The translations under genes were made by a program, and so were the position numbers. The notes under the pieces are model-generated. The model was not told where the DNA came from. It saw nothing but the letters and a program-made list of their open reading frames with translations, and made no database searches. A stretch of 64,000 nt of DNA, from assembly GCA_000702685.1 (NCBI GenBank), contig JNJD01000006.1, forward strand, positions 124,001 through 188,000, in the 5' to 3' direction. Shown here in pieces: positions 4,395-32,257 of this stretch. This DNA comes from Lachnospiraceae bacterium AC2028. GTDB lineage: Bacteria; Bacillota; Clostridia; Lachnospirales; Lachnospiraceae. Numbering within the stretch: position 1 is the stretch's first letter; every line of letters begins with the position of its first letter.

Positions 4395-4404
4395 AACGCC
4401 CTTT

Positions 4405-5271: not shown

Positions 5272-5399
5272 ATCATACCTCCGGAAAAATTAGGTTTTAC
5301 CCCAAAATACACCGTAAGATATAATACATCAAACAGATATCAAAAAACAATTAAAATATTATAAAATATCATGTTACATAGTTTGGAATTCTATGTTTG
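5272..5399 (-). promoter_or_regulatory. degV upstream region with a probable promoter and a weak dut 3' hairpin
   Basis: This AT-rich gap separates dut from degV. Reading the minus strand, a small stem (acatag/ctatgt, 5376-5396) follows dut and precedes a T-rich stretch, a weak terminator at best. Closer to degV a TATTAT box with a TTGTTT about 18 bases upstream is a plausible promoter; TATATC just after it is an alternative -10. Neither hexamer pair is strong, so the promoter is a suggestion from position and composition. Confidence 0.4.
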
Positions 5400-5906: not shown

Positions 5907-5917
5907 TTTGTTCTCCT

Positions 5918-6478
5918 TTAATACATACAGGGTACGCCGGATCTTGAGCTTCCGTGTACGGAATCCGGATCGAGCACCGAATAATGATCGGGACAATGAA
6001 TCTTTACTTCTCCTGTTTCAAGCGATTCCTTAACATCGATAACGCGCTGATTGGAACTGCCTTTCCAGCATAGAGTTACATCCTTGAGATTTTTATCGAA
6101 TGGTCCGTCAACAACAACATCGACATATTTCATAAGGGTAAGATGCTTTATATCTTCCCAGAGATCACCGGTATAAAGCCATACAGTCTTACCGGGAAAC
6201 TCATCTTTAAAAGACTTGAGAAGCTGTTCGACATCAGCAATATTTCCGGGATAAAGAGGATCGCCTCCGCTTAATGTAAGACCGGAAATATAATCTCTCG
6301 AAAGAAGATCGAAAAGCTCTTTCCTGGCTTCATCATCAAAATATATGCCGCTGTCGGGTTCCCAGGTCTGGGGATTCTGGCAGCCGCTGCACATATGGCT
6401 GCATCCGCTGACCCACAGAACGACTCTGAGACCGTCACCGTTCTTCATATCATCTTTTGTAATATCATGATATCTCAT
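5918..6478 (-). CDS. nrdG: Anaerobic ribonucleoside-triphosphate reductase activating protein
   Basis: Radical-SAM activase that installs the glycyl radical on NrdD. The cluster motif CSHMCSGCQNPQTW (C-x3-C-x2-C) is at about residues 27-40, followed by the SAM-binding LSGGDPL. From the ATG at 6478 the protein is 186 aa, slightly longer than the usual 155-180. That ATG overlaps the nrdD stop by one base (TAATG), so translation is coupled. The open frame runs on to 6604 but the additional residues are the nrdD tail in another frame. dut follows 11 bases downstream. Confidence 0.95.
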   Translation of the reverse strand: MRYHDITKDDMKNGDGLRVVLWVSGCSHMCSGCQNPQTWEPDSGIYFDDEARKELFDLLSRDYISGLTLSGGDPLYPGNIADVEQLLKSFKDEFPGKTVWLYTGDLWEDIKHLTLMKYVDVVVDGPFDKNLKDVTLCWKGSSNQRVIDVKESLETGEVKIHCPDHYSVLDPDSVHGSSRSGVPCMY

Positions 6479-8646: not shown

Positions 8647-8663
8647 TTTCTCTCTCCGAAATA

Positions 8664-9632
8664 TTAATATAATTTGATCAGATCTTTTAAAAACGATCTG
8701 TATGAACTGACAACGGAATCAGGTGAAACAAGCTTTACGTCACCGCCGAGCCCCGAAAGCCATCCGTAGAACTGATTGCTGACATAGCATTTGGTCCTGA
8801 CAAGAATACGTCCTTTATCACCCGGGCGCTGTTTGACATCCGTACCGAATCTGTCATAAGCGATACCGATAAGTTCCTCGGGAAAATCAAGAGTAACAGT
8901 CTCCTGTTTTCCTCCGTACATTGAAAAAGTGCTTTCCAGATATTCGGACATATCCAGACTTTCAAATTCTTCCCTGCCGTTTCTCAAAGAATCCGTGACG
9001 GAAACATTTCTCATCTTGTCGACTCTGAAATGCTTCATCTTGCCGGCTGCATCATCGTAAGCCATAAGATAATAATTCTGATCCTGCCAGATAAGTGCCC
9101 AGGGGCTTAAGATCCTGATCTTATCTCCCTTTGTCACAAGCTTTTTATTTGCACCCCAGACAAGATATTCAAAGCTTACCTGTTTATTATCCTGTATCGC
9201 CCTCGAAAGAGAATCAACGTTATAAAGCACATCTTCATTGGGCGTTTTTGAATCGGATGAATAAATCTGTCTGGTTATCGATGAAGCCTGACTTTCACTG
9301 GTCAGAGTTTTAAGCTTTCCCGCCAGGACTTTGGTCTTTTGAGATGAAATGAATTTTGAAGAATAAACGGCATCAACAAGGAGCCTGATCTCAACATCTT
9401 CAAAATCACGTGACAAGAGCTTATATCCGCCGCCCGGTTCATGAATGATATCAACACCGGCATCCGTAAGGGAATTAATATCATCATAAAGAGTCTTTCT
9501 GTCGCACTTTAATCCTTCCGCAGAAATACGCTCAAGGATATCGGCAGCTTTCAGTGCATGATCTTCATCGGTATTCTTTTTCAGGATATCAAGAATAAGA
9601 AGTATCCTGGTCTTATTGTTATATGTGTTCAA
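8664..9632 (-). CDS. WYL-domain transcriptional regulator (YafY type)
   Basis: 322 aa with an N-terminal DeoR-like winged helix (ADILERISAEGLKCDRKTLYDDI, about residues 24-60) and a WYL ligand-sensing domain (residues about 140-220, SPWALIWQDQNYYLMAYD), then a WCX-like C-terminus. WYL proteins bind nucleic-acid-type ligands or nucleotides and control defence, DNA repair or metabolic genes. The start codon is TTG at 9632 behind AGGTGTGC; no in-frame ATG is near. A terminator lies just upstream at 9653-9690. nrdD starts 17 bases downstream, so this regulator may control the nrdD-nrdG-dut operon; that is inference from position. Confidence 0.88.
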   Translation of the reverse strand: MNTYNNKTRILLILDILKKNTDEDHALKAADILERISAEGLKCDRKTLYDDINSLTDAGVDIIHEPGGGYKLLSRDFEDVEIRLLVDAVYSSKFISSQKTKVLAGKLKTLTSESQASSITRQIYSSDSKTPNEDVLYNVDSLSRAIQDNKQVSFEYLVWGANKKLVTKGDKIRILSPWALIWQDQNYYLMAYDDAAGKMKHFRVDKMRNVSVTDSLRNGREEFESLDMSEYLESTFSMYGGKQETVTLDFPEELIGIAYDRFGTDVKQRPGDKGRILVRTKCYVSNQFYGWLSGLGGDVKLVSPDSVVSSYRSFLKDLIKLY

Positions 9633-9652
9633 AGCACACCTGTCCCATTAAA

Positions 9653-9690
9653 AAATATAAGGATACGGGTTTACACGTATCCTTAAAAAA
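9653..9690 (-). terminator. Intrinsic terminator downstream of the 63-aa membrane protein gene
   Basis: On the minus strand AAGGATACG pairs with CGTATCCTT around an eight-base loop (9658-9683 region), followed by ATATTTTTT. It ends transcripts of the small gene at 9695-9886 and leaves only about 20 bases before the TTG start of the WYL gene, so readthrough or a promoter inside that spacer would be needed for the regulator. Confidence 0.8.
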
Positions 9691-9694
9691 CACC

Positions 9695-9886
9695 TTAGGA
9701 ATTATCTGATGCCCCGGGTGAACTTTCAGAAACAGATTCTACGCTTTCGGCATTTCCGGTCTTGGAATCTTTCCTCTTCCTTAAAAATCTGCCGATGATA
9801 AAACCGAGTGCGGCTACACATACGATTATTATCATAAGAAGCAGGTAGCTCAGGAACGAATTTACAAATACTATTCCCTGACCCAT
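9695..9886 (-). CDS. Small single-span membrane protein, function unknown
   Basis: 63 aa. Residues about 12-34 form one strongly hydrophobic helix (SYLLLMIIIVCVAALGFIIG), followed by a basic stop-transfer cluster RFLRKRKD and a short Ser/Glu-rich cytoplasmic tail, giving an N-out/C-in topology. I recognise no family. It is likely real: the ATG follows AGGGAGGA at good spacing, a consensus-like promoter lies upstream (9960-9989), and a terminator follows the stop, so it is a monocistronic transcript. Its function cannot be stated from sequence. Confidence 0.75.
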   Translation of the reverse strand: MGQGIVFVNSFLSYLLLMIIIVCVAALGFIIGRFLRKRKDSKTGNAESVESVSESSPGASDNS

Positions 9887-9912
9887 ATCAAATCCTCCCT
9901 AATAAAGCAGGC

Positions 9913-10006
9913 ATATAGTGTGGAAAAAAAACTCCGAATGTCCTCAAAACACACTATATAGTATACATTTTATACATTACGAACGTCAAGAAATAACGGA
10001 CATTCG
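9913..10006 (-). promoter_or_regulatory. Promoter framed by two interlocking inverted repeats
   Basis: The minus strand has TTGACG (9984-9989) and TATACT (9960-9965) 18 bases apart, pointing at the 63-aa gene. A perfect 9-base inverted repeat, cgaatgtcc at 9935-9943 and ggacattcg at 9998-10006, brackets the whole promoter. A second perfect 10-base repeat, atatagtgtg at 9913-9922 and cacactatat at 9950-9959, lies just downstream of the -10 and would form a stem in the 5' leader. The arrangement suggests operator half-sites and/or a regulated leader; the regulator is unknown. Confidence 0.65.
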
Positions 10007-10030
10007 CAGAGGTTATGTAAACCAAAATCA

Positions 10031-11728
10031 TCAGATTCGGCTTCTTTTATCGAGTTCTCCGCAGAGTTTCTCACTAGCCTCCGTAACAGATGCCGGAAAA
10101 CCGGTCTTTTTAAGAAGTGCTATGGCATTTCTGCTGTTTGTGGGACCTTTTTCAAGGATATATGAAAATGTAACATCATCCTCGGTAATGTTCTCGCCGA
10201 AATGCACGTTTTCATATTTATCCGAGATCAGTGTAGTAAGCTCGATATCATGCGTCGCGGCAAAAGTGATGACATTCAGATCCGACAGATAATTTAAAAC
10301 TGCACAGGCCGCTGCGATCCTTTCGGAAGTATTTGTACCGCGAAGTATTTCATCGATAAAACAGATAACGGGCCTGCCATCTGCAGAAGCTGCATCCACT
10401 ATCCTCTTAAGGCTCTTTATCTCAGCCATGAAATAGCTTTCACCCTTGAGTATGCTGTCGTTTACAGCTATGGATGAATATATCCTGAAATGGGATGCTT
10501 TATACGCGGATGCGCAGCATGTAGCAACAGTCTGGGCAAGTATCGCATTAACGGCAATCATCCTCATATAAGTTGATTTACCGCTTGCATTGGAACCGGT
10601 AATGAGTACACCGCCGGATGAACCGGCATCGTTGGCTACCGGCTTTTCAATAAGAGGATTGAATCCGTCTTTAATGCTTATGACTGCTTTATCCGTAAAT
10701 TCAGGTGCGCAATACGCTCCCTTCGTCTCAAGGAAAGCCCTGTAGGACGCTACGGAAAGACACATATCGAGATATCCGGTCTTTTCATATGCATCAAGAA
10801 TCCTGTCCTTATCCTTTTTAATGCCTGTAAGAAGAAATGCACTTGCAATAAGATCAAAATGGAAAAAGAGATTGATGTATGTAAGAAGCATCGAAATCAG
10901 ACCGTTACCGGAATTGGGACCGGAACTGAGCACAAATGATGCCAGAGATCTTTTTCCGCTGATCGATCCGAGTTCATCAGCAAGATCATCTATAAGCCTG
11001 CCTGTTTCGGACGAAAGTCCCTTAGGAAGACTTTTCTCCATACAGCTCAGTCTCATTATCATAGTGACTCCGTTAAGTTTTTCCTCGGCAGATCTTCTGA
11101 GCGAAAAATATGATGATATCTGAACCAGTATCAGAACAGCAAGAAATACGGCTCCGACGACAGGCTTCAGGATCAGTATGATAATGATGGCTATATAATA
11201 TACATCCGCTAAGATATGGAACCACGGATTAATGAACTTATCGGAACCGACTATATGTTCCAGATATTCCGGAAGAGTCTTATCTTTGACAAAACCGAGT
11301 TCATGAAGTGAAGAACCGAGAGCTATTCTCAGCTCCTCATCCTTATAAAGCTCAGCAACATAAATATCCGTTTTCTTAAGTTCTTCTTCGGAAGTACCGA
11401 TATCATGAAGCTTATAATACAGATATTCTTCTCCCGCAGCGGACAGGCAATTATCCATCTGAAGGAATATATCCTCCATACCGGTATCGGACCATGTCAG
11501 ATCATCAATCCGGTCTTTCACAGGATCGTTTTCGGCTTTAAGCTCAATAAGCTTTTGAAGGGCATTTTTTCTGCCCTGTGAAAGCTTTCTTGCCGAAGAC
11601 TTACCGAATGAATCACGAATAAGGGATACTGTCTGTCTCTTCTCTTCCAAAGACAGACGATATCCGCTGATCGCAAGAAGTATTAAGATTATTACAACAA
11701 AAACAATTCCGTACATATTAAAATGCAA
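10031..11728 (-). CDS. Membrane-anchored MutS-family ATPase
   Basis: 565 aa. A first hydrophobic helix (residues about 6-22), a soluble stretch, two further hydrophobic helices near residues 170-205, then a MutS domain-V ATPase: Walker A TGSNASGKST, the YMRMIAVNAILAQ helix, the SYFMAEIKSL signature region, Walker B VICFIDEILRGTN and the AATHDIEL switch. It lacks the MutS mismatch-recognition and connector domains and the MutS2 Smr nuclease, so it is not a mismatch repair MutS. Related membrane MutS-like proteins are widespread in Firmicutes and Bacteroidetes with unclear function. The start is TTG at 11728 preceded by AGGG, which is the 3' arm of the preceding terminator; an in-frame ATG at 11716 lacks a good ribosome site. 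Confidence 0.85.
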   Translation of the reverse strand: MHFNMYGIVFVVIILILLAISGYRLSLEEKRQTVSLIRDSFGKSSARKLSQGRKNALQKLIELKAENDPVKDRIDDLTWSDTGMEDIFLQMDNCLSAAGEEYLYYKLHDIGTSEEELKKTDIYVAELYKDEELRIALGSSLHELGFVKDKTLPEYLEHIVGSDKFINPWFHILADVYYIAIIIILILKPVVGAVFLAVLILVQISSYFSLRRSAEEKLNGVTMIMRLSCMEKSLPKGLSSETGRLIDDLADELGSISGKRSLASFVLSSGPNSGNGLISMLLTYINLFFHFDLIASAFLLTGIKKDKDRILDAYEKTGYLDMCLSVASYRAFLETKGAYCAPEFTDKAVISIKDGFNPLIEKPVANDAGSSGGVLITGSNASGKSTYMRMIAVNAILAQTVATCCASAYKASHFRIYSSIAVNDSILKGESYFMAEIKSLKRIVDAASADGRPVICFIDEILRGTNTSERIAAACAVLNYLSDLNVITFAATHDIELTTLISDKYENVHFGENITEDDVTFSYILEKGPTNSRNAIALLKKTGFPASVTEASEKLCGELDKRSRI

Positions 11729-14957: not shown

Positions 14958-15779
14958 TCAAAAAGCGGCTATGGAAGCTCTTACGAGTTCTTCAAATCTC
15001 TTCGAAACGGAATCGGCTGCTTTCTGAACCTCTTCGTGATTAAGTTCTTCTCCGGTGATGCCGGCAGCCATATTGGAGATGACAGAGATGCCGCAGACTT
15101 TCATTCCGGCATGTCTTGCAGCAATTGCTTCAATAGCGGTACTCATACCTACAGCACTTCCTCCGAGAAGCCTGAGAGCCTTAACATCGGAAGGTGATTC
15201 ATAAGAAGGTCCGCTGAGCTGGACATAAACTCCCTTGAAAAGCTCGGAATTCTGTTCGGCAGCTTTATCTATGATGATCTGTGAAAGATCCTTGTCGTAG
15301 ATCCTGGTCATATCGGGGAATCTTGTGCCGAGTTCCTCAACATTGGGTCCGATAAGAGGATTCCTTACAAGAAATGAAATCTGGTCTTCTATGAGCATAA
15401 GACAGCCCGGATGGAAGCTTTCGTTGATACCGCCGGCAGCATTGGTAAGGAAGAGGATCTTTGCTCCCATCAGATACATCAGTCTGATGGGCATGACAAC
15501 ATCCGAAGGCTCATAGCCTTCATACATATGAACTCTTCCCTTCATGCAGACAATTTTCTTGTCTCCGTCATATCCGAATATGAACTTGCCGGAATGACCC
15601 TGTACGGTTGATACCGGGAAACCGGGAAGTTCGGAATAAGGGATCTCACATACGGTCTTAATGGAATCGGCATATGCACCGAGACCCGAACCGAGTACAA
15701 GTGCGATCTCGGGAACAAAATCAGTCTTTTCCCTTACGGCCTTTAATGCTGTCTGCAGTTTTTCGTAAGCTTCACTCAT
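14958..15779 (-). CDS. punA: Purine-nucleoside phosphorylase
   Basis: 273 aa trimeric PNP of the PNP/MTAP family, cleaving inosine/guanosine with phosphate to base plus ribose-1-phosphate. Seen: [12 protein letters not shown] phosphate loop, [34 protein letters not shown] base-pocket strand, and [10 protein letters not shown]. Its ATG overlaps the tyrS stop by four bases (ATGA). With cdd, the deaminase and the permease it forms a nucleoside salvage group. Confidence 0.95.
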
Positions 15780-16999
15780 GAGATCACCTTTTTGAACGCT
15801 TTCTTTCCGCGTCTGACAAGTTTTCCGTCCTTAAGATCTTCAGCGGAATATAATGTTTTAACATCGGTTACCTTCTCATCGTCAACGGTCACACCGCCCT
15901 GCTCAACGGCACGGCGTGCTTCGTTTCTTGTAGGGCAGAGACCGGCCTTTACGAGTATTCCGAGAATATCGATCTTGCCGTCCCTGTAATCTCCTTCCTC
16001 TATCTGAACGGTGGGGATATCCGCACCCGTGATATCACCGCCTCCGAAAAGAGCATTGGCTCCTGCTTCAGCCTTATCGGCTTCTTCCTTGCCGTGTACA
16101 AGCTCTGTGAGTTCGTGTGCAAGGATCTTCTTGGCTTCATTGATCTTGGAATCTTCCCATTTGCACATCTCCTCAATCTGTTCGATAGGAAGGAATGTGA
16201 GCATTCTCAGGCACTTGAAGACATCGGCATCACCGACATTTCTCCAGTACTGGTAGAACTCGTAAGGAGTGGTCTTATCGGCATCAAGCCATACAGCACC
16301 CTTTGCAGTCTTACCCATCTTCTTGCCTTCCGAATTGAGAAGAAGGGTTATGGTCATTGCATATGCATCCTTGCCGAGCTTCTTTCTGATGAGTTCGGTT
16401 CCGCCGAGCATGTTGCTCCACTGATCGTCACCGCCAAACTGCATATTGCAGCCGTATCTCTTGTAAAGCTCAAGGAAATCGTAGGACTGCATGAGCATAT
16501 AGTTGAACTCAAGGAAGCTGAGTCCCTTCTCCATGCGCTGCTTGTAGCACTCTGCCCGGAGCATATTGTTTACCGAGAAATGAGGACCGATATCCCTGAT
16601 GAACTCAACATAGTTAAGATCAAGGAGCCAGTCTGCATTATTGACGAGCTTAGCCTTGTCCTCTCCGAATTCGATGAATCTGGACATCTGCTTCTTGAAG
16701 CACTCTACATTGTGCTCAATGGTCTCTTTTGTCATCATAGTACGCATATCGCTTCTTCCGGTGGGGTCACCGATCATTCCGGTGCCGCCGCCGACAAGAG
16801 CTATGGGCTTATTGCCTGCCTGCTGAAGTCTCTTCATAAGGCAGAGCGCCATGAAATGTCCGACATGAAGTGAATCTGCGGTAGGATCGAATCCTATATA
16901 AAATGTAGCTTTGCCGTTGTTGACAAGCTCCCTTATCTCATTTTCGTCCGTAAGCTGTGCAAGAAGCTGTCTCTGCTGCAGCTCTTCAAAAATACCCAT
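15776..16999 (-). CDS. tyrS: Tyrosyl-tRNA synthetase
   Basis: 407 aa class I synthetase. The HIGH-type motif is HVGHF (residues about 45-49, [13 protein letters not shown]), the tyrosine/AMP pocket includes [22 protein letters not shown], and the KMSKS-type loop is [11 protein letters not shown]; an S4 RNA-binding domain closes the protein ([19 protein letters not shown]). The ATG follows AAAGGAGATTTTTAAG. Many Firmicutes tyrS genes have a T-box leader; here only 24 bases separate it from the VWA gene, so no T-box is present and expression depends on the upstream operon or an internal promoter. Confidence 0.97.
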
Positions 17000-17023: not shown

Positions 17024-18232
17024 TTATCTTGTTTCCATGAGCTTGGTCATAGCCTGATCAAGACCTTTCACGGATAATTTATACATCGGAAACATCTGCT
17101 TTACTGCTGTCTCGGCTTCTCTCCACGGTGCGTTTCCGGGAGCCATCTTAGGATTGAGCCATACAACCTTCTTATAATGTCTCTTAATGGATTTAAGCCA
17201 TTCTTCGCCGCTCAGTCCGTCATTGGGGCCGCGGTAATTACCGGTATCCGAATACAGTTCTTCGGGAGCCATTGCCGCATCTCCCACTATTATAACCTTA
17301 TAATCGGAATCCGTGTTACGGAAAAGCCATTTTGTTTCAACCCAGTCACCGTTTTCGCATTCCGGAGTCTTATAAACGTGGGAATATATGCAGTTATGGA
17401 AATAATAACATTTTACTTCCTTGTAGTGATTACTTTTATTCACCGCCTGGAAAAGATCGTTAAGCAGTGTGGAATACGGAATCATCGTTCCTCCTGAATC
17501 CATAAGAAGAAGCAGCTTGACCGAATTCTTCCTCGGTTTTCTCATCTCGATCTTAAGAACCCCGCCCTGATTGCAGGTTTCATCCACAGTCTTATCAATA
17601 TCAAGCTCTCTTTCGGGAGTATCAAGCCTGGAAGAAAACTGTCTGAGCCTCCTGAACGCAAGCTGGAACTGCCTGTTGGTCATGACTCTGTCATCACGGA
17701 AATCCCGGTATTTCTTTGCGCCGATAACCGCAAATGCCGACTGATAACCGGTAGTTCCTCCGACTCTTACACCGCCGATATTACCTCCGGTATTACCGAA
17801 TGAAGTCTTACCCATTGTTCCGATCCAGAACGAACCGCCGTTATGCTCCGAATCCTGATCCTTGAGGCGCTGTTTGAATTTCTGCTCGACATCTTCTTTG
17901 TCGATAATGATACCTTCACCTTCCATCTTGTTCAGATGATCCCTTGCTTCCATCTCCGCAAGCTGCATCATATCGGATTTATCAAGCCACCTGAGCATTT
18001 CCTTACCGACTTCGGGATCACTCTTTATCTTGCCGAAGCATTCTTCAAATGCTTCATCATACTTGTCATAATCCGTTTCCGATTTAACAAGTATCATTCG
18101 AGCACAATGATAAAACCTTGAGAGCTGGCCGCCGATCAATGAAGAATCAAGTGCATTCTCCAGATCGAGCCATTCGCCCAAAGTAACGTTGATGCCGTGC
18201 TTTCTTAAACTTTCAAAAAAATTCAAAAACAT
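17024..18232 (-). CDS. VWA-domain protein, CoxE-like, partner of MoxR ATPase
   Basis: 402 aa. The N-terminal half is alpha-helical and acidic; the C-terminal third (about residues 225-400) is a von Willebrand factor A fold beginning KLLLLMDSGGTMIPYS. The MIDAS motif is D-S-G-G-T instead of D-x-S-x-S, a variant known in CoxE-type proteins. A Gly-rich segment (GGNIGGVRVGGTTG) precedes it. VWA/MoxR pairs act as ATP-driven chaperone or metal-insertion machines. Its start overlaps the moxR stop by one base, so the two are made together. Substrate unknown; the gene cluster links it to a phosphorelay. Confidence 0.85.
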   Translation of the reverse strand: MFLNFFESLRKHGINVTLGEWLDLENALDSSLIGGQLSRFYHCARMILVKSETDYDKYDEAFEECFGKIKSDPEVGKEMLRWLDKSDMMQLAEMEARDHLNKMEGEGIIIDKEDVEQKFKQRLKDQDSEHNGGSFWIGTMGKTSFGNTGGNIGGVRVGGTTGYQSAFAVIGAKKYRDFRDDRVMTNRQFQLAFRRLRQFSSRLDTPERELDIDKTVDETCNQGGVLKIEMRKPRKNSVKLLLLMDSGGTMIPYSTLLNDLFQAVNKSNHYKEVKCYYFHNCIYSHVYKTPECENGDWVETKWLFRNTDSDYKVIIVGDAAMAPEELYSDTGNYRGPNDGLSGEEWLKSIKRHYKKVVWLNPKMAPGNAPWREAETAVKQMFPMYKLSVKGLDQAMTKLMETR

Positions 18233-19044
18233 TATTCGAAATAATGATGAACCGTCTGTTCAAGGTCCTCGTCTTTTTTTACAACAACGCCGATGAATGG
18301 AAGTCTTGTCTTGATCTGTCCATAAGGAATACCACCGATCTGAAGAGCATTGATCCAGTCTATAAGTTCGGAGGTGGAAGGCTTCTTCCTTATATCCCTG
18401 ATATCACGGATCTGATAGAAAACATCCATAGCCTCTGCAAGGAGATGCTCTTCAACCTCGGGGAAGTGCACTCTGATGATCTCTTCCATGAGTTCCCTAC
18501 CGGGGAACTCGATATAATGGAAAATACATCTTCTGAGGAACGCATCGGGAAGTTCCTTTTCGGCATTTGATGTGATGATGACTATAGGTCTGTTCTTAGC
18601 CTTTACGGTTCTCTTGGTTTCATTTATATAGAACTCCATCTGATCGAGCTCCCAGAGAAGATCGTTCGGGAATTCCAGATCGGCTTTATCGATCTCATCT
18701 ATAAGAAGGACAACCTGGTCCTCGCTATCAAAGGCCTCACCGAGTTTTCCGAGCTTGATGTAATGAGCGATATCGTCAACTCCGCCTTCGCCGAACTGAC
18801 CGTCATAAAGTCTCTGGATCGTATCATACATATAGAGACCGTCCTGAGCCTTTGTTGTGGATTTGATATTCCATATGATAAGTTTCTTACCGAGCGCATC
18901 CGCAACGGACTGGGCAAGCATTGTCTTGCCGGTTCCGGGTTCACCCTTGATAAGAAGAGGCTTTTTGAGAGCAATTGCAATATTCACGGAATCCATAAGT
19001 TCCGGACTTGCAACATAACCTTTTGTTCCTTCAAACTTTTCCAT
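18232..19044 (-). CDS. MoxR-family AAA+ ATPase
   Basis: 270 aa, AAA+ core only. Walker A GEPGTGKTMLA near residue 36, Walker B VVLLIDEIDKAD near residue 110, sensor 1 IVITSNAEKE, arginine finger DAFLRRCIFHY. MoxR ATPases work as hexamers with VWA proteins to remodel or mature a target complex. The stop overlaps the VWA start and the start abuts the response-regulator stop with no gap, so the MoxR/VWA pair is locked into the signalling operon. Confidence 0.9.
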   Translation of the reverse strand: MEKFEGTKGYVASPELMDSVNIAIALKKPLLIKGEPGTGKTMLAQSVADALGKKLIIWNIKSTTKAQDGLYMYDTIQRLYDGQFGEGGVDDIAHYIKLGKLGEAFDSEDQVVLLIDEIDKADLEFPNDLLWELDQMEFYINETKRTVKAKNRPIVIITSNAEKELPDAFLRRCIFHYIEFPGRELMEEIIRVHFPEVEEHLLAEAMDVFYQIRDIRDIRKKPSTSELIDWINALQIGGIPYGQIKTRLPFIGVVVKKDEDLEQTVHHYFE

Positions 19045-19800
19045 TTAATTATCTCCGTTAAAAAATTTATCAAGTTCATTCCTGAGGACTTCCTTGCTTA
19101 TTGATTTAAGCAGATACCCCTGAGGATTAAGCTTCATTACCGTCTTGACGCTTTCCTTGTCAGACTTACCGGTTAGAAATATTACGGGAATATCCCTCGA
19201 AAACTCTTCGCTTCTGATCATCTCCAGTATCTCAAGTCCGGATGCAACCGGCATCATATAATCAAGAAGAACAAGATCCGCATGGTTTTTTGCAAGCCAT
19301 GTAAGAGCCTGAATTCCTGAATTGGCCATATAGACTTTATATTTATCCTTGAGCCAGTCCCTGACTGTACGCAGATAAGTTGTATCGTCATCTACGATCA
19401 GAACGCTCTTCTTGTCATTTTCTTCCTGGGCGGTTGACTGAACGCCTCTGATCAGACCGATAAGCTCCTGCATGTCGATCGGTCTCTCGAGCTTACCGGC
19501 AAGGAAATTATCGGATATGTAATCATTTACAACCGCAAAATCCGCAGGGGAACCGATCAATATAAGTTTCTTCTCATCATCATTGCATTTATCCTTGAGA
19601 TATATGAGAAGATCGGTCTTTTCAAGTATGGATTCATCAATATAAAGGATTATTATCTTCTTTTCATCGATCGAATTCCTTATGCCCGGTGATTCCGTGG
19701 ATGAAAAAGAACACAGAAATCCTTCTGCCTCAAGCTTATATTTTATGGCATTGACCATAAAACTGTCTATTTTACTCACCATAAGAACGGATTCACTCAT
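19045..19800 (-). CDS. Double-receiver protein (degenerate REC plus canonical REC)
   Basis: 251 aa, two receiver folds and no output domain. The N-terminal copy (residues 4-118) starts VLMVSKID instead of an Asp-Asp pair and has Asp55 in LYIDES; it looks non-phosphorylatable or atypical. The C-terminal copy (residues 132-250) is canonical: LIVDDDT acidic pair, phosphoacceptor Asp180 in LLDYMMP, Thr in FLTGKSD. The C-terminal switch Lys is present in YLLKS, without the usual following Pro. With no DNA-binding or enzymatic domain it must act by protein contact, plausibly on MoxR encoded with no gap downstream. Start ATGA overlaps the hybrid kinase-like gene by four bases. Confidence 0.88.
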   Translation of the reverse strand: MSESVLMVSKIDSFMVNAIKYKLEAEGFLCSFSSTESPGIRNSIDEKKIIILYIDESILEKTDLLIYLKDKCNDDEKKLILIGSPADFAVVNDYISDNFLAGKLERPIDMQELIGLIRGVQSTAQEENDKKSVLIVDDDTTYLRTVRDWLKDKYKVYMANSGIQALTWLAKNHADLVLLDYMMPVASGLEILEMIRSEEFSRDIPVIFLTGKSDKESVKTVMKLNPQGYLLKSISKEVLRNELDKFFNGDN

Positions 19801-22466
19801 AATGCCTCCTTCGCGATACCGAGAACGGTTTCCCAGTCAAGCGCTTCCATGGACTTTCGTATTCTTTCAAATCTTTCGGCGTCTTCGGACTTAAACTCAT
19901 ATTGACGAAGCGAATCAAAAATGATCTCTATGCTGTCATAATCCATCATCATGGCAAGCTCATAGATCGTCATATAAGCATCTTTTACAATTTCCGGTGT
20001 GGCGGGCGCTACAGAGACCGGTTCGTCTACTTTCATCTTATCGGATAGGGCTTTGGACAAAGCTCTGTATTCCGCGAGAAGATCCTGTGTTTTTTCTTTT
20101 ATAAACTCCGTATTATGATCCTTGCCGGCAGCTTCAAGAGCTCTGGCCAGCTCGGATAATTCAAGCGCACCGATGATCCTTGCGGAACTCTTTAAAGCAT
20201 GAACCCTGATGGTATAACCGTCAATATCACCTGCGGTATAAAGGGAATCTATCTCATCGGCTTTGACTTCCGTAGTGCCGATAAATATCTCAACAGCTCT
20301 TTTCAGCCCGTCTTCGGAACCGCAGTTATATACGCCCTGTTCGATATCAATCCCCTTGATCCCTTCAAGGAATGACAGTTCTCCGCTGAGATTGATTTCT
20401 TCGGAAGCACTCCCAGGTTTTGCGTTCTCAGTCTTTACAACCTCAACTCCGTCGGAAAGATTATATGATGAAGAAATATTTAAGGTGAACGCACGCTTCT
20501 CGTCCTTGGAACCGATCACGCTGACCTTATCCTTGGGAAGATAAAGAAGAAGCAATGCATCAATGACTTCGGAATCATCATCAATATTCATATAATCGGT
20601 ATAACTGTCATATATCACAGCAGGATCGATATCCGAATTCTTTTTGAGAATAAGTATCGTAGGAATATCAACGCTGTTCCAGATATATGTCTTGATCGAA
20701 CGGTTATCGCCGGAACGCAGTCCGTCTTCGACAAATACGATATCGTAATCGCCGCCGGACAGTCTTTCTATGCATTCATCACAGCCGTATACAACATCGA
20801 TCCTTGCCATTGTTGTAAGGAACAGCCTGGATAACCTGTTGATCTCCTCCCTTTCCCGGCCTGCAATTAGTATCTTGGCGCCGGGCGCTATAAGAGGTCT
20901 TGAAAAAGTCGAAGCGAGCATGAACCCGCTTATGCCCGAAACGGAATTGACTTTGACAACGGTCTCCATTGTGGCAAGAGGAAGGAATTTACCGACCGCC
21001 CTGAGAAGCGAACCGCCGGTAAAAGGCTTGGGAAGGAATGCATCAAAGCCTTCACTTAGATATTTTTCCCTTTCTCCCCTTACCGCATTTGCGGTAACAA
21101 CAACAATGGGAGTAAGATCGCAAAGAGAATTTTCCCTGAGATAATGCATTGCTTCAACGCCGTCCATAACCGGCATCATATGATCCATAAGTATAAGATC
21201 ATAATCATTTTTGGTCACCAGTTCGATAGCGGTCTTGCCGTCCTCAGCACCGTCAACCGAAAAGCCGAACTGCTTTACGGTACGGACAAGAAGTTCCATG
21301 TTGAGTTCGTTATCGTCTACACAGAGTATCCTGTACATTGACGAATCGGGAAAAGAATCCGGATCAGAAGTTCCCGGTGAATAATAACCGGATCTGGAGA
21401 TGAAATCCTTGGTGTTTTTTTTCTCATCAAGATCAAATCCGACGTTGAGATACAGCTCCTTTTCTATCTCATCAAGAGAAACAAGGGCACTGTTTCCGAA
21501 CTCACTGATGTCAGCCATGTTGTCTACAATATCGGTAAAGAACTGATCAAGCCTTCTTGCGCCTTTGAAGGCACTGGCCGCATTTTCTTTGACATCATCC
21601 GATACATTTGCCTTGATGATCTCTTCCGTGTATCCCATGATCGCATTGATCGGGGTTTTTATCTCATGAGACAGATGTGACAAAAACGTGCTCTTTGCTT
21701 CATCCGATCTCTTGATCCTCTCCAGAGCTCTTCTTTCATCATTACGTACTTTATCAAGCTCTTCCAGAGTATTGACAAGTTCCGTATATTCGGGAGTCTC
21801 CAGGGTAAGAAAGAGCATAAACAGACATATCCCGCTTACGAAATAAGCCATAAGAGCCTGCTCTTCCAGTATTATCTGAAGGATAAAGATAATAAGAACG
21901 ATAATGAATCCAATTGTAAGAAAGCATCTCTGCACCTTGCTGAATTTCTTTTTTTTGAAAAAAGAAAGAGAAACACCGAGTAAAATGTAATAAAGAGGGA
22001 ACAGATATCCGACGGTTCCGTATAAAAGACTTCTTACAAGCCCGACACCCGGAACATAAGAAAATGCAATGCCGGTAAAATAATTGATCACCAGTATGAT
22101 CACATAGATCACATTGATCGCATATGAGATCATATTCAGGATATGTTCGCTCTTCTGCAATCCGGCAAAAGCGACCATATATAAGTAAAATCCCATAGAG
22201 CTGCTCAGTCCCATAAGGAAGTTGAGCGAAAGGAATATAATATGGAATGAAGGTGAAAGCGTATCCCCCCACATAAACGTGATCGCAGTCACTATATCAA
22301 GCAGCGTACCTACTGTTGTAAGAAGCGCATAGATCTTAAATCTGTAATTGGTAGCTTTTGTGTCGCGGTCATCTTTATAATATCCGAACACAAAAATAAG
22401 CAGTATCAGCTCGATGGGCAATACCGACAGTTCAAAATATATGTTGTAGGTCTGTTCGAATACCAA
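19797..22466 (-). CDS. Hybrid histidine-kinase-like membrane protein with HPt but no ATPase domain
   Basis: 889 aa. About seven hydrophobic helices (residues 13-223) form a membrane sensor; then a coiled segment, a HisKA dimerisation domain with phosphoacceptor His267 (SHLSHEIKTP), a canonical receiver (residues 379-497; Asp428 in LMDHMMP, Lys480 in LPKPF), a second, degenerate receiver (about 530-640) lacking the acidic pair, and an HPt domain with His near residue 756 (VHALKSSARIIGA). Between HisKA and the first receiver there are only some 50-60 residues with no N, G1, F or G2 boxes, so the HATPase_c domain is absent. It cannot autophosphorylate alone; it may be a relay scaffold or phosphatase. 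Confidence 0.88.
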   Translation of the reverse strand: MVFEQTYNIYFELSVLPIELILLIFVFGYYKDDRDTKATNYRFKIYALLTTVGTLLDIVTAITFMWGDTLSPSFHIIFLSLNFLMGLSSSMGFYLYMVAFAGLQKSEHILNMISYAINVIYVIILVINYFTGIAFSYVPGVGLVRSLLYGTVGYLFPLYYILLGVSLSFFKKKKFSKVQRCFLTIGFIIVLIIFILQIILEEQALMAYFVSGICLFMLFLTLETPEYTELVNTLEELDKVRNDERRALERIKRSDEAKSTFLSHLSHEIKTPINAIMGYTEEIIKANVSDDVKENAASAFKGARRLDQFFTDIVDNMADISEFGNSALVSLDEIEKELYLNVGFDLDEKKNTKDFISRSGYYSPGTSDPDSFPDSSMYRILCVDDNELNMELLVRTVKQFGFSVDGAEDGKTAIELVTKNDYDLILMDHMMPVMDGVEAMHYLRENSLCDLTPIVVVTANAVRGEREKYLSEGFDAFLPKPFTGGSLLRAVGKFLPLATMETVVKVNSVSGISGFMLASTFSRPLIAPGAKILIAGREREEINRLSRLFLTTMARIDVVYGCDECIERLSGGDYDIVFVEDGLRSGDNRSIKTYIWNSVDIPTILILKKNSDIDPAVIYDSYTDYMNIDDDSEVIDALLLLYLPKDKVSVIGSKDEKRAFTLNISSSYNLSDGVEVVKTENAKPGSASEEINLSGELSFLEGIKGIDIEQGVYNCGSEDGLKRAVEIFIGTTEVKADEIDSLYTAGDIDGYTIRVHALKSSARIIGALELSELARALEAAGKDHNTEFIKEKTQDLLAEYRALSKALSDKMKVDEPVSVAPATPEIVKDAYMTIYELAMMMDYDSIEIIFDSLRQYEFKSEDAERFERIRKSMEALDWETVLGIAKEAL

Positions 22467-22480
22467 TATGCTCTACCCGT

Positions 22481-23944
22481 TTATCTGTAATTCTTGGCTC
22501 TCTTATAGATCCCGGCAGCGGCTTTATACAGATCGTCGTAACCTTCGGTGTATTTTCTGATATCCTGTTCGGATCTGATCCCGGGACAGAAGAAGGATTC
22601 ATCCGTTATGTCGACTTTGTCCGAAGGCAGATACTTAACAAGAAGCTCTTCAATGTTTTTCGGATTCACGGGTTTGGCGACAACGTCCGTAAACGCCCCC
22701 CTGCCGATATCGTCTTCCGTAACGGTTTCCGAATCTTCAACAATGGCTATGCAGGGCTTTCTGACATCCAGAATATTCGGCTCTCCGCTCCTGATATGAT
22801 TGATAAGCTTAATGCCTTTATCATCTTTCATAGACAGATCGGCAAATATAACATCATATTCATTGATTCGTAAAAGCGTGATCGCTTCTTCACAATTTGA
22901 GGCAAGATCGATAGTGACACCGGACGATTCGAGAAGACGACGGATGATCTCTATATTACATTTATCCTTATCGGCATAAAGGATCCTCGAAGCGGGTGAA
23001 TAAAACATTCGCTGCTCGCCATCATTCAGGAATGATCGCTTTCTGACAGTTTTCTTGATGTCACCTATTCCGGTTGCGTCCACAATCTCCGAATGGATCG
23101 TAAGGTCAAATGCGATCTCTTCATCGACCGTTTCGAAAGCTTTGAAATTCCCGCCGATGGCATTCAGGGTATTTCCCGCTATAAAGAATTCAAGAAGTCC
23201 TTTTTCACTGCCGGAGAATAAAAGCTTATTGTCCGATAATCCGTTCTCCAGTATATTCGAAAGCTTATCGGCAGAAGTCGACAGGGATTCACAGATGATC
23301 CTGAATGTGATATCGGTGAATCCTTCACAGCTTTCTTCATGAACGGAAGATAATTTTACATAGCCTTTTGAGGAATTTTTGCAGATAAAAGAAAACAGAT
23401 TAAGAAAACTCCGTCTCAGCTTTTCGTAGTCTCCCTTTATGATGCCGGGAGTATCCTTATCAAGGTCGATATCAAGAATAAGTCCCCTGTTCTTAAGCGA
23501 AGGACCGGACAGGCTGATGACATCTATCATAAGCGAAGCAAGATCGACATCATCTTTATAGACATCGATCAGGCCTCTTTCAAGTCTTATATAATCCGAA
23601 GTTCCCTGCATAAGAGCAATGACATCTTCTCCGGATGTTTTGATATGTGAAGCGTGATCCCTGATGTTATCATCATGACATTCCCGCATGATCAGTTCAT
23701 TCATACCGAGAACAGAGATCATTCCCATCTTCACTTCTCTGGTCAGATTACTGAGAAGAATATTTCTGTCATCGCCGATGTGTCTGACCATATCAATGAG
23801 TCTTTCGTTCTCAATGATGTATTTTTTCCGCACCCTGAAATAAAGCGTGGCGGATACAGCAAGAAACAGGACCGCCGCGATCAGAACAACGGACAATATT
23901 AGCATTTGAAAAGAGGCATCACCACTGAGTATCGGATACTTCAT
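22481..23944 (-). CDS. Pseudo-histidine kinase with receiver domain, membrane-anchored
   Basis: 487 aa. One N-terminal membrane helix (residues 13-36), then a HisKA-like helix pair in which the phosphoacceptor is Arg69 (LSNLTREVKMGM against the usual SHEIKTP), then a HATPase_c-like fold with eroded boxes (RRSFLNLFSFICKNSSKG lacks the key N-box Asn; no GxGxG G2 box), and a C-terminal receiver (about residues 330-460) with Asp in FADLSMKD. It resembles a kinase that has lost catalysis. Start ATG at 23944 overlaps gpsA by 26 bases and follows AGGGAAAAGAAGG; an ATG at 23905 is an alternative but would remove residues just before the membrane helix. Confidence 0.82.
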   Translation of the reverse strand: MKYPILSGDASFQMLILSVVLIAAVLFLAVSATLYFRVRKKYIIENERLIDMVRHIGDDRNILLSNLTREVKMGMISVLGMNELIMRECHDDNIRDHASHIKTSGEDVIALMQGTSDYIRLERGLIDVYKDDVDLASLMIDVISLSGPSLKNRGLILDIDLDKDTPGIIKGDYEKLRRSFLNLFSFICKNSSKGYVKLSSVHEESCEGFTDITFRIICESLSTSADKLSNILENGLSDNKLLFSGSEKGLLEFFIAGNTLNAIGGNFKAFETVDEEIAFDLTIHSEIVDATGIGDIKKTVRKRSFLNDGEQRMFYSPASRILYADKDKCNIEIIRRLLESSGVTIDLASNCEEAITLLRINEYDVIFADLSMKDDKGIKLINHIRSGEPNILDVRKPCIAIVEDSETVTEDDIGRGAFTDVVAKPVNPKNIEELLVKYLPSDKVDITDESFFCPGIRSEQDIRKYTEGYDDLYKAAAGIYKRAKNYR

Positions 23945-24923
23945 CCTTCTTTTCCCTGAGCATAAGCTCCTTTACAGCAACGCCGGCATCCTTGCCCTCG
24001 AAAAGGATAAGGTTGACCTGCTCGATTATAGGAAGGCTGACATCATATTTTCTTCCGAGTTCGATCGCAGCCTTTGCGGAATAGATTCCCTCAACGACCA
24101 TTCCGACTTCTTTCTGTGCTTCTTCAAGGCTCTTGCCTTCTCCGAGAAGTATGCCGCATCTTCTGTTGCGCGAATGCATACTTGCACAGGTAACGATAAG
24201 ATCGCCCATTCCGGTAAGTCCGCTGAATGTTTCGGGCCTGCATCCCATCTTTACACCGAGTCTGGAAATCTCGGCTATACCTCTGGTTATCAGGGCTGCC
24301 TTTGCATTATCACCGTATCCGAGTCCGTCAGCGATACCCGCGGCAAGAGCAACAACATTCTTAAGAGAACCTCCGAGTTCTACGCCCTTGACATCGGAAC
24401 TGGTATAGACTCTGAAAGTCTCGGTCATGAAAACATCCTGTACAAAAAGTGCAGTCTCTTTGTTGTGGGAAGCTACAACGATCGTCGTAGGCATAAGCCT
24501 GGAAACTTCCTCGGCATGAGTGGGACCCGAAAGTACACAAACATCGGCACACGGAATCTCATCGGAAATCTGCTCGGAAAGAGTTTTGAGAGTACCCTCT
24601 TCTATTCCCTTTGCAACATCGACGATTATCTGGCCGTCCTTTATAAGAGGTGCAAGTCTCTTTGCAGTCTTTCTGGTAAAAGAAGAAGCAACGGCCATTA
24701 CAAGGATATCCCTGTCGGTCACAGCCTCCTTATCATCAAGCGTATATCTGACGCTTTCGGGAATGGTCGCACCGGGAAGCATCTTATGAGCGTGAGTTGA
24801 GGAAAGCATCTCTATCTCCGATTCGACGGCAGACCAGACCATTACATCATGACCTGCGGTCGCAAGAAGTATGGTAAGACCTATTCCCCATGTACCTCCG
24901 CCGAGAACTGTTACCTTTGCCAT
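23919..24923 (-). CDS. gpsA: Glycerol-3-phosphate dehydrogenase [NAD(P)+]
   Basis: 334 aa. Reduces dihydroxyacetone phosphate to sn-glycerol-3-phosphate for phospholipid synthesis. N-terminal Rossmann motif VTVLGGGTWGIGLTILL, conserved VAKGIEEGT, LSGPTHAEEV, catalytic Lys in GVELGGSLKNVVALAAG, and GLTGMGDLIVTC. It lies two bases after plsY, which uses its product, a conserved Firmicutes pairing with der. The stop lies inside the start of the pseudo-kinase gene. Confidence 0.96.
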   Translation of the reverse strand: MAKVTVLGGGTWGIGLTILLATAGHDVMVWSAVESEIEMLSSTHAHKMLPGATIPESVRYTLDDKEAVTDRDILVMAVASSFTRKTAKRLAPLIKDGQIIVDVAKGIEEGTLKTLSEQISDEIPCADVCVLSGPTHAEEVSRLMPTTIVVASHNKETALFVQDVFMTETFRVYTSSDVKGVELGGSLKNVVALAAGIADGLGYGDNAKAALITRGIAEISRLGVKMGCRPETFSGLTGMGDLIVTCASMHSRNRRCGILLGEGKSLEEAQKEVGMVVEGIYSAKAAIELGRKYDVSLPIIEQVNLILFEGKDAGVAVKELMLREKKDEVSDTQW

Positions 24924-29569: not shown

Positions 29570-32257
29570 TCATTCTTCACGGAGAACACTTACATCATCA
29601 AGATCCGAGCTGAATTCGGGGATGGAAATGCTTGTAACGAACATATCTCCGTCCACAATGACCTTGAAGTTGCCTCCCTGAGCCTGGGTAAGGCTCTTGG
29701 CGATAAAAAGACCAAGTCCGCTTCCTTCGCCTGTCCTGCTCTCATCGCCCCTTATGAATCTCTCCGTAAGCTCATCCCCCTGGAATCTGGGCCTTACCGC
29801 GGAAACGTTCTTGATCTTGATATTGGCAACGCCATCCGATGCGGTATATTCCACATATACCCTGGTTCCGCCCATAGCATATTTACAGATATTCTCGAAA
29901 AGGTTGTCAAATATCCTCCATGTGCATCCGGGATCGGCATAGATGTAAGCCCTGGGAAAATCATTGGCAACAAGCTCAAGCTTTGAGCCGGCAAATCTGC
30001 CCTCATATTCACCGAGAGCCTGGTTCAGAAGTTCGGTAAGATCTGTCTTTTCCTTATGCAGCTCTATCTGTCCCGAAGAAAGCTTGGAAGCCTCAAGAAG
30101 ATCTTCAAGAAGCTTCTTGAGTTTGATCGACTTTTCTCCGATTATCGAAAGATATTCTTTTTTCTTTTCCTCGGTAAGGTTATCCCTCTTGAGAAGATCG
30201 GAATAGTTGATTATCGAAGTAAGCGGAGTCTTAAGATCATGGGATACATTCGTGATGAGTTCCGATCTTAACTGCTCTTCCATAAGCGAAGATTCAACCG
30301 CAGTTTTGATACCGTCACCGATATTATTGATACTCTCCGCCAGATTCTTATTTTCATAACGCAGATTAGAAACATCGATCTTATAATCGACATCACCGCC
30401 ACGGATCTTGGCAATGCCGTTCAGAAGTTCTTTCTTTTCCGCGGTAACGAGGAACAGCAGGATGCCGACAAAAATATCGACAAGAATAAGTACAGAGAAA
30501 ATGATAGCCGTAACTGCCGGGTTATTCCTGTTCAAAACTCCGTATATAGAACCGCCGACATTAATGGTGAGGAATGCCAGATACGGGAAGATAACGGTCC
30601 ATGATGCGGCTGATCCTCCGGAGAAAACAAGAGCGAACCAGTCAAAGAGCATCTTGATCCTCTTGAGCAGCGAATACTCAAAAAGAACACCGGCCCTGAT
30701 CCTTCTGACGATCGAATAGATTATGAATGCACCCGTAAGCGAAAGCAGGAATCCGAAGATGCCGAAGATAAGATAAGATGATATGCTTCCGTTCTTAAAA
30801 GGTCCGCCGTTTTCAAATGTGATCCTGCAATAATTCTCATTGATGAGTGTTTTCAGATAACCATAATAAAATCTTGCAATATAAAATGCAGCGACCGAAA
30901 TGACCAGAAGCACTTCGATCCAGATCTTATCCTGTGGAAATACCCTGAACTCCTCACCGTCGTCCGTGTATTCTACGCCGGTTATGAAAAGCAGGTACAC
31001 AAAGAGTGCAAGCCATATGAAGGTAAGGAATGCAATGACTATCGTAAAAAGTCCGGATACCTGCTTGACGGAATCATACCTGTATAAAAGATCATAATAG
31101 ATATCGTTTCCTCTTGAAGAGGTGTCATCAATATACATCCAGACATGAGTGTTGTTCGGGTATACATCGGGATAGATCATTATCGCGTCTGTAATGACAT
31201 TTTCATTTATATCCGAAAGAGTTGAATACTCAAGATCGTCATAATAACAGATCAGATAATGGAAATGGCTTGAAAAGATATCGGCCAGGGAAGCATCATC
31301 ATATTTCACGGAATCCGGATAGTTGGTATAAACCTTGGTGGTTCCGTCCGTGGTCTTGGTCCTTATGGTATAGACCAGATTGGAGCTGCTGTTTTCATAC
31401 AGCTTCTCACCTTCCCTGTAAACATCGTAAGCAGCGGAAAAAAGAGATGAAGTGACCTTAAGTTCATCTATGGCGGTAAAATATCCGTCCCAATTGCGGA
31501 TAGCTTCTTTATAGCTTAAAAACGAAGTGAAATCTTCATCATCAACGATCGGTTCCTTGAAGGTGACGTAGATCATGCCGTCATCCCAGCTCGACAGGGA
31601 AACAAGCTCGGGATATTCCCTTACACAGTACTGTGCAACAAGATTAAGAAGATCGGAAGGAAGGGTATCCCTTATCGCCCGGGACACATTGGGATCTTCT
31701 TCGCGCTCTGTTTCCTCCGATACATTGACCGTATATTTTTCGGAGAATTTATATCTGTTCAGGGTTTCAAATCCGACAAAATAAAGATTGCCGTACGGAT
31801 CTATATCAAAATTTTCCGAATAAAGAGGATCGCCGAAATAATAGACGAAATCCTGAAGTGTAAGACTTCTTTCGGTATAATCTATACCTCTCCTGCCAAG
31901 GTTTATCAGATCGGAAAGATACAGTTTAATGCCTACTTTGTTATTCCCGTGATAATAATCCGATATGTCGACAAGCCTGTTATCCTTGATGCCGTTCTGA
32001 GCACCGAGTATCTCCTTGGCTGCGGTATACTTCATGATATCGGAAGCCTGATGAGCAAATACATCGGTGATGATACCGTCTATCTCCTCGTTCTCTTCGG
32101 AAGGAAACGGATTGAGTGCATATCTCGAATCTCCTCCGAGATAGCTTACGGAAATATAACTGCAGAAAAAAATGTCCGCCAAAAAGAGTACGGAAATAAA
32201 TGCACATAAGTGCATTCCGAGATGGAGCATCAATTTTTTGGCTCTGGTCTTCTTCAT
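29570..32257 (-). CDS. Sensor histidine kinase with large extracytoplasmic domain and multi-span membrane core
   Basis: 895 aa. An N-terminal membrane helix (about 12-35), roughly 370 extracytoplasmic residues rich in acidic and Tyr residues, then about six membrane helices (400-600), a HAMP-like linker (AKIRGGDVDYKI), HisKA with phosphoacceptor His673 (TNVSHDLKTPLTS), and HATPase_c with N-box IFDNLFENICKYA and G2 box GEGSGLGLFIAK; the G1 DxGxG is replaced by KNVSAVRPRF, as in a known group of Firmicutes kinases with the LTERFIRGDESR box. Starts with ATGA overlap on its response regulator. Signal unknown; operon with cell-envelope and ribosome assembly genes. Confidence 0.92.
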   Translation of the reverse strand: MKKTRAKKLMLHLGMHLCAFISVLFLADIFFCSYISVSYLGGDSRYALNPFPSEENEEIDGIITDVFAHQASDIMKYTAAKEILGAQNGIKDNRLVDISDYYHGNNKVGIKLYLSDLINLGRRGIDYTERSLTLQDFVYYFGDPLYSENFDIDPYGNLYFVGFETLNRYKFSEKYTVNVSEETEREEDPNVSRAIRDTLPSDLLNLVAQYCVREYPELVSLSSWDDGMIYVTFKEPIVDDEDFTSFLSYKEAIRNWDGYFTAIDELKVTSSLFSAAYDVYREGEKLYENSSSNLVYTIRTKTTDGTTKVYTNYPDSVKYDDASLADIFSSHFHYLICYYDDLEYSTLSDINENVITDAIMIYPDVYPNNTHVWMYIDDTSSRGNDIYYDLLYRYDSVKQVSGLFTIVIAFLTFIWLALFVYLLFITGVEYTDDGEEFRVFPQDKIWIEVLLVISVAAFYIARFYYGYLKTLINENYCRITFENGGPFKNGSISSYLIFGIFGFLLSLTGAFIIYSIVRRIRAGVLFEYSLLKRIKMLFDWFALVFSGGSAASWTVIFPYLAFLTINVGGSIYGVLNRNNPAVTAIIFSVLILVDIFVGILLFLVTAEKKELLNGIAKIRGGDVDYKIDVSNLRYENKNLAESINNIGDGIKTAVESSLMEEQLRSELITNVSHDLKTPLTSIINYSDLLKRDNLTEEKKKEYLSIIGEKSIKLKKLLEDLLEASKLSSGQIELHKEKTDLTELLNQALGEYEGRFAGSKLELVANDFPRAYIYADPGCTWRIFDNLFENICKYAMGGTRVYVEYTASDGVANIKIKNVSAVRPRFQGDELTERFIRGDESRTGEGSGLGLFIAKSLTQAQGGNFKVIVDGDMFVTSISIPEFSSDLDDVSVLREE

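Follow-up and report, generated by a model that had tools for sequence, protein, structure and literature searches.

A candidate kinase-less phosphorelay adjoining a MoxR/VWA gene pair in rumen Lachnospiraceae

A 64,000-nucleotide stretch of the genome of Lachnospiraceae bacterium AC2028 (GenBank assembly GCA_000702685.1, contig JNJD01000006.1, positions 124,001 to 188,000 of the forward strand; hereafter the window) contains three phosphorelay genes directly 5' of a gene pair for a MoxR-like ATPase and a VWA protein. The three genes encode a pseudokinase (pHK), an 889-residue membrane protein with HisKA, REC and HPt domains, and a stand-alone double receiver (RECREC). A preliminary description had called this phosphorelay genetically locked to MoxR/VWA. 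The observation of the gene set was confirmed, and its interpretation is partly supported. What stands is a weaker claim than locking: multistep phosphorelays are recurrently associated with MoxR/VWA, probably through recruitment, and the window carries a kinase-less variant. As a whole, the arrangement is best explained as a relay without its own kinase that would be fed in trans and would end on MoxR/VWA through RECREC, a reading offered tentatively and at somewhat less than an even chance, for which the protein pairing, the phosphate donor and the RECREC step are inferred.

Phosphorelays beside MoxR/VWA

Hybrid-kinase phosphorelays directly beside MoxR/VWA were seen in several lineages. Among 31 genomes of the genus, the window's own included, a RECREC gene of the window type lies on the same contig as the pair in 13, and the arrangement is split by a contig end in one more (G023). 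In genome G022, a Reg_prop-HisKA-HATPase-REC-HPt kinase and a RECREC gene were found 5' of MoxR, and a 684-residue hybrid kinase, a 1150-residue hybrid kinase containing a DegV domain, a transporter (recognised by eye) and a second RECREC gene were found 3' of VWA. The DegV domain of the larger kinase is located between the receiver and the HPt (L210:10434-13886).

A second type of relay, composed of REC-HD, HK-REC and HK-REC-HPt proteins, was found 3' of VWA (loci L225, L236, L252 and L117). Behind VWA, genomes G226 and G216 and locus L117 encode a REC-HD protein and then two kinases, the second being cut by the contig end in L117. In G226 and G216, HisKA and HATPase_c exceed their cut-offs in both kinases; a purpose-built profile recognised an HPt in the second kinase of each genome, which Pfam scores below its cut-off in G216 and does not list in G226. 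When 298 genomes were searched with the REC-HD protein of G226, one more close ortholog emerged, in G296 (59%), with the same gene order beside MoxR/VWA; there were also 12 weaker matches (35-38%), and none of the five such loci inspected lies near MoxR/VWA. All four close REC-HD orthologs are located directly 3' of VWA, which is explained by common ancestry and does not count as four separate events. G226, G216 and G296, the ones whose genera were compared, belong to three genera.

Across 36 loci with 514 gene junctions, all three runs of hybrid-kinase genes, the window's included, fall at the junctions touching MoxR/VWA, which number at most 72, or about two of 14 per locus. None of the 11 classical or other signalling runs falls there. 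With uniform and independent placement, the chance of finding three of three at the pair is 0.003, or 0.02 with two events, but this figure is soft because the window was ascertained and counted among the three runs and the other two runs are orthologous.

Proteins of the module and a possible path of phosphate

pHK contains one membrane helix, a DHp domain, a degenerate ATP-binding domain and a decaying receiver, followed by a C-terminal stretch resembling, by eye, the first helix of an HPt. Response_reg alone exceeds its Pfam cut-off. At the phospho-acceptor His site the alignment has Arg in 14 of 14 ortholog rows, and the receiver Asp is kept in five of these rows and lost in nine. (Rows L055, L056 and L058 repeat L041, L042 and L044, so that the 14 pHK rows represent 11 genomes, the 15 rows of the membrane protein 12, and the 12 RECREC rows nine.) HATPase_c gave no match to pHK in the Pfam scan, pHK is absent from the 38 HATPase_c hits of the source genome, and no ATP-binding boxes were seen in the ortholog alignment. 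Judged by its sequence, pHK is thus not an active histidine kinase, since both the acceptor His and the ATP-binding boxes are missing. The structures of pHK and RECREC were predicted with AlphaFold as single chains from five sequences each. The pHK model has a mean predicted local distance difference test score (pLDDT) of 62.8, with residues 41-127 (the DHp part) below 50. A Foldseek search of this model against the PDB returned ShkA as the best match (E 5e-15), then RetS (E 3e-12), with GacS and DivL also found. The model therefore points to a hybrid histidine kinase fold, with DHp and ATPase-like parts, whose catalytic residues have been lost.

The membrane protein contains an N-terminal multi-helix region, HisKA (His267), a first receiver (REC1, Asp428), a degenerate second receiver (REC2), HPt (His756) and a conserved C-terminal tail. 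HisKA, one Response_reg and Hpt (30.8 against a cut-off of 24.6 bits) are over cut-off in Pfam, and HATPase_c is absent from both the Pfam scan and the genome search; by sequence, then, the protein classes as an HPt protein and not as a hybrid histidine kinase. The HisKA His is conserved in 15 of 15 ortholog rows, as are the REC1 Asp (in all 12 genomes), Thr and Lys, and the HPt His is present in all 13 rows with letters there (10 genomes). In REC2, Glu replaces Asp in all 14 rows with letters. Hydropathy analysis gave five segments in the window's protein and six in two orthologs, some of them long, a result compatible with six to seven helices. An unannotated conserved tail like that following the HPt (window positions 19797-20000) was also observed in the majority of the hybrid kinases inspected next to RECREC genes (L050, L194-L212).

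RECREC consists of a degenerate first receiver and an intact second receiver (Asp180) without an output domain; one Response_reg is over cut-off in Pfam. Asp180 is kept in 12 of 12 rows (nine genomes). In the first receiver, Lys occupies the acidic first-strand position in 12 of 12 rows, and the Asp at the end of the third strand is still present in all 12. The model (mean pLDDT 62.2) matches PleD and CheY-like receivers. RECREC belongs to a multicopy family, with three further full-length matches in the source genome, one of them with a flagged stop.

The ATPase matches AAA_5 (48.5 against a cut-off of 22 bits) and other AAA models over cut-off, and falls under the cut-off of AAA_3 (17.6 against 27 bits), which we take to be the usual Pfam model for MoxR. 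Its motifs GEPGTGKT at 34 and LLIDEIDKAD at 113 are presumably Walker A and Walker B. The VWA protein exceeds the cut-off of VWA_CoxE (PF05762; 29.9 against 26.4 bits) and carries DSGGT at 245, which we take to be a MIDAS-like motif (MIDAS, metal ion-dependent adhesion site). In a sequence search of solved structures, midasin chains were the only matches to the ATPase profile (5 sequences at E 1e-5), and the VWA profile gave no match at E 0.1. The NCBIfam models of MadB and MadC scored under their curated cut-offs (118.7 against 475 and 21.8 against 600 bits), and a literature search on them returned nothing relevant. The MoxR-like ATPase and the VWA protein belong together as a long-established chaperone pair whose genes lie in a housekeeping operon.

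Some protein assignments of the preliminary description were amended. The label of pseudo-histidine kinase fits pHK in the loss of the catalytic His; a kinase fold is nevertheless recognisable in its weak model, so that the finding named as speaking against the proposal, a recognisable HATPase_c in a structure model, was partly made, with the residues lost. For the "seven-helix HisKA-REC-REC-HPt protein without ATPase domain", the domain order and the missing HATPase_c were upheld, whereas REC2 is degenerate and seven helices are not proven. The output-less double receiver indeed has no output domain and an intact second receiver, its first being degenerate. The naming of a MoxR ATPase and a VWA protein agrees with AAA_5 and VWA_CoxE but not with AAA_3.

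The five genes are under purifying selection, and none looks like a pseudogene. The ratio of nonsynonymous to synonymous substitution (dN/dS), estimated from six pairs of which some share genomes and rough because dS often exceeds 1, is 0.01-0.02 in MoxR and VWA. Among the signalling genes of the module RECREC evolves most slowly (0.02-0.04), against 0.09-0.11 in the membrane protein and 0.10-0.19 in pHK.

If the relay runs forward, a donor kinase in trans is needed. The source genome has 13 Hpt hits (one under cut-off) beside its 38 HATPase_c hits. When the lists were compared by hand, the 12 other Hpt hits were all found in open reading frames with HATPase_c, the window's Hpt being the only one without; these intact HPt kinases mean that donor kinases exist in trans. 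The earlier proposal of a relay lacking its own kinase is supported, the relay being kinase-less as encoded, and candidates for a separate donor kinase are present in the genome. On the preferred reading, the phosphorelay module that stands just 5' of MoxR in a clade of rumen Lachnospiraceae lacks kinase activity of its own. pHK, as a pseudokinase of the RetS/DivL kind, would use its DHp helices to pair with the membrane protein, much as RetS pairs with GacS. Phosphate would enter in trans from an intact hybrid kinase of the genome at REC1 or HPt, in the manner of LadS, and would then be handed to the second receiver in RECREC. Once phosphorylated, RECREC may in turn alter the activity or the partner choice of MoxR/VWA. 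Lying directly before MoxR and being the last receiver of the relay, RECREC is the most obvious protein to exert such an effect, and we infer control of the pair by receivers at the protein level.

The same proteins could instead act as a sink or insulator that drains phosphate from other relays, with pHK pairing with intact kinases and MoxR/VWA an unrelated or indirect target. The resemblance of pHK to RetS and DivL in the fold search fits this explanation, the invariant HisKA, REC1 and HPt sites would permit reverse flow, and many of the 38 HATPase_c proteins are possible partners. RECREC would be needless in such a scheme, yet it evolves more slowly than the other signalling genes of the module, and the explanation is regarded as distinctly unlikely.

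Gene order, gene losses and origin of the module

The five genes are present on the reverse strand at positions 17024-23944 and are read from high to low coordinate (Table 1), and the co-directional arrangement with overlaps or near-zero gaps reported in the preliminary description was verified.

Table 1. Positions of the five genes and their flanking genes in the window
Gene	Position	Strand	Description
gpsA	23919..24923	-	5' neighbour; 26-nt overlap with pHK
pHK	22481..23944	-	pseudokinase, 487 aa
889-aa membrane protein	19797..22466	-	HisKA-REC-REC-HPt, 889 aa
RECREC	19045..19800	-	double receiver, 251 aa
MoxR-like	18232..19044	-	AAA+ ATPase (AAA_5), 270 aa
VWA	17024..18232	-	VWA protein of CoxE type, 402 aa
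tyrS	15776..16999	-	3' neighbour; 24 nt past VWA

Downstream of the gpsA overlap, pHK and the membrane protein gene are separated by 14 nt, the latter overlaps RECREC by 4 nt, RECREC and MoxR abut with a gap of 0, and MoxR and VWA overlap by 1 nt, so that all six junctions, the gpsA and tyrS flanks included, have a gap of at most 24 nt or an overlap of at most 26 nt. The five genes are part of a longer, tightly spaced housekeeping block (der-plsY-gpsA-[five genes]-tyrS-punA), and tight spacing is therefore not special to them. A sensor-kinase-like gene was noticed upstream of der-plsY-gpsA (window positions 29570-32257), with a kinase at a similar place, by eye, in many relatives. The source genome comprises 2.77 Mb in 14 contigs, and the closest VWA genes among named records are from Lachnospiraceae metagenome-assembled genomes, several of them from rumen, and from isolate P6A3.

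Several results, together with the softness of the chance figure and the weakness of the AlphaFold models, weigh against a relay that serves MoxR/VWA. With each genus represented by a single genome, 37 of 199 Lachnospiraceae genomes had a VWA relative (E 1e-40); 36 of the 37 loci could be scored, and hybrid kinases lie beside the pair in three. A VWA gene was called in 76 of 80 named loci, and in five of the 76 the pair directly adjoins hybrid-kinase or RECREC genes. These are L054, L055, L056 and L058, all of the window's clade, and L117. This scoring used purpose-built profiles, and a few relay neighbours were possibly missed where loci stop at contig ends. Within the genus, the pair occurs without the module in 14 of the 31 genomes, including G002 inside the window's clade; gpsA is the next recognised gene 5' of MoxR in 11 of these 14, and metF lies between them in three. 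G025 gave no VWA hit in the genus survey. The module is also reduced inside the clade, with G010 retaining a shortened membrane protein alone. That protein (L040:7411-9282) was observed to start with a pHK-like leader, as if a deletion had fused both genes, and RECREC, REC2 and the tail are gone. In G002, whose VWA fragments share 92 and 95% identity with the VWA of the window, the whole module has most likely been lost, because gpsA abuts MoxR and the genome, 83% complete, gave no RECREC hit at E 1e-25. Outside the clade, neither MoxR nor VWA is present in 19 of 20 paralogous RECREC regions, and the remaining one, around the second RECREC copy of G022, contains a VWA gene. A 770-residue DHp-REC-HPt-tail protein without HATPase_c adjoins RECREC in G032 (L198:5654-8762), where MoxR/VWA is again missing from the region; the window is thus not alone in pairing RECREC with an HPt protein that lacks a kinase domain. 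Finally, the membrane protein has its closest outside relative in G034, which gave no VWA hit and has no MoxR/VWA in view.

The losses in G010 and G002 would fit a relic in the course of being lost, as would the missing His of pHK (14 of 14 rows) and its missing receiver Asp (nine of 14). Such decay is considered very unlikely, since dN/dS is far below 1 for all five genes, the phospho-sites are invariant, and RECREC has stayed on one contig with the pair in the 13 genomes noted above and, split by a contig end, in G023. A more serious alternative, though doubtful, is that pHK, the membrane protein and RECREC are a relay with an output of its own, as is presumably true of RECREC paralogs elsewhere, that shares only transcription with MoxR/VWA after a chance insertion. 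The multicopy nature of RECREC, whose paralogs mostly lie away from MoxR/VWA, the similar relay without MoxR/VWA in G034, and the lack of a relay at most MoxR/VWA loci all favour this, and unrelated genes also occupy these junctions. It does not readily account for the fact that the few hybrid-kinase runs found are all at MoxR/VWA junctions or for the second relay type being held 3' of VWA in four lineages. The term "genetically locked" is in any case too strong, because the pair mostly lacks signalling neighbours and relatives of the relay occur elsewhere without it. The check proposed with it, co-occurrence in other Clostridia, gave recurrent adjacency in several Lachnospiraceae lineages with most loci lacking a relay, and the separation into loci without co-conservation that would speak against it was partly found (the pair alone in the 14 genomes above, the relay families elsewhere).

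The window's module is akin to a common Lachnospiraceae cassette composed of an HPt-bearing hybrid kinase and a stand-alone double receiver. In the 20 regions around RECREC genes other than those of the window's clade, an HPt-bearing hybrid kinase with HATPase_c was found within three genes in 13 (as the next gene in nine), a kinase-less HPt protein as the next gene in one (L198), and neither in view in six. In G034 (L258, C13:22000-41000; positions 3611-11220), a row of genes opens with two resembling, by eye, binding proteins and continues with an intact hybrid kinase, a membrane HisKA-REC protein lacking a kinase domain, and a REC-HPt-tail protein encoded separately. From a visual comparison, the HisKA-REC and REC-HPt-tail proteins of G034 appear fused in the window's membrane protein, and pHK looks like a decayed version of the G034 kinase. 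Derivation of pHK and the membrane protein from the 3' REC-HD relay was considered and found no support, the outside sequences that match them best being kinases from RECREC cassettes and from G034. The best hits of the 684-residue kinase of G022, among the kinases compared, are those of the 3' REC-HD relays.

The window's clade forms one group in the RECREC tree (100/100), which left out three very long rows. In a tree of joined module domains, which left out one of 24 modules for distance, the G022 module groups with another cassette (97/95), and the union of G022 with the window's clade is rejected (approximately unbiased test, p 0.0002), a test made once an earlier tree was known and on a tree containing long branches. 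With the receivers alone, this union is not rejected (p 0.137), and in the locus tree G022 is the sister of the window's clade (99/98). With branches this long, an independent capture of the G022 module was not adopted: the joined domains favour it and the receivers alone do not decide it, but given the place of G022 in the locus tree, a single capture and subsequent fast divergence may equally apply. That relays were recruited more than once to drive MoxR/VWA directly, the window's clade doing so with a pseudokinase and a kinase-less HPt membrane protein, is judged somewhat unlikely.

Comparison with known systems and significance

In Pseudomonas, RetS pairs with GacS, and LadS acts in trans on the GacS HPt (PMC12189002). 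The window is similar to RetS/GacS in having a kinase-like hybrid protein, with RetS second to ShkA in the fold search, beside an HPt relay protein of the kind for which trans input is known there. Unlike in RetS/GacS, the HPt protein has no ATPase domain, pHK has no His, the cluster has no GacA-like output gene, and MoxR/VWA follows. In the Rcs system (RcsC-RcsD-RcsB), another hybrid kinase feeds a membrane-bound phosphotransfer protein that combines a kinase-like part with an HPt. The window also encodes such a membrane phosphotransfer protein; however, pHK scores 26.2 bits against the RcsD model (cut-off 634), RcsD does not appear in the top 25 of the membrane protein's 114 hits, and the cluster has no DNA-binding regulator.

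As in CoxD/CoxE and other MoxR-VWA pairs, an AAA+ ATPase adjoins a CoxE-type VWA protein, but no CO dehydrogenase was seen among the neighbouring genes read, the phosphorelay genes standing in its place. The MoxR-vWA core with extra partner genes is also reminiscent of ternary conflict systems (PMC7159879). Unlike in those systems, a third partner (such as VMAP, iSTAND, FtsH or propeller) was not recognised by eye in the open reading frames at 10000-32000, the VMAP and iSTAND models not having been run by name. The bpMoxR model gave 21.3 bits against a cut-off of 27, and PADLOC found only weak hits to defence systems, of at most 27 bits. The survey of these conflict systems reports that receivers occur sporadically and that histidine kinase domains are absent among vWA-associated effectors (eLife 2020, PMC7159879). 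In Riemerella, the two-component system PhoPR has reportedly been tied to MoxR (PMC9603813, PMC11834572). A search of titles and abstract openings in the open-access literature found no paper on a phosphorelay beside MoxR/VWA in Lachnospiraceae, nor on a gene set of this composition.

Known phosphorelays mostly end in transcription factors or second-messenger enzymes. The window's clade, G022 and the REC-HD type (G226, G216, G296 and L117) offer natural comparisons between relays with intact kinases, a kinase-less relay and no relay. If the proposed path is true, an AAA+ remodelling machine would be the end point of a phosphorelay. MoxR/VWA pairs are chaperones whose input signal is mostly unclear, and a relay ending there would, if true, explain how they are switched on.

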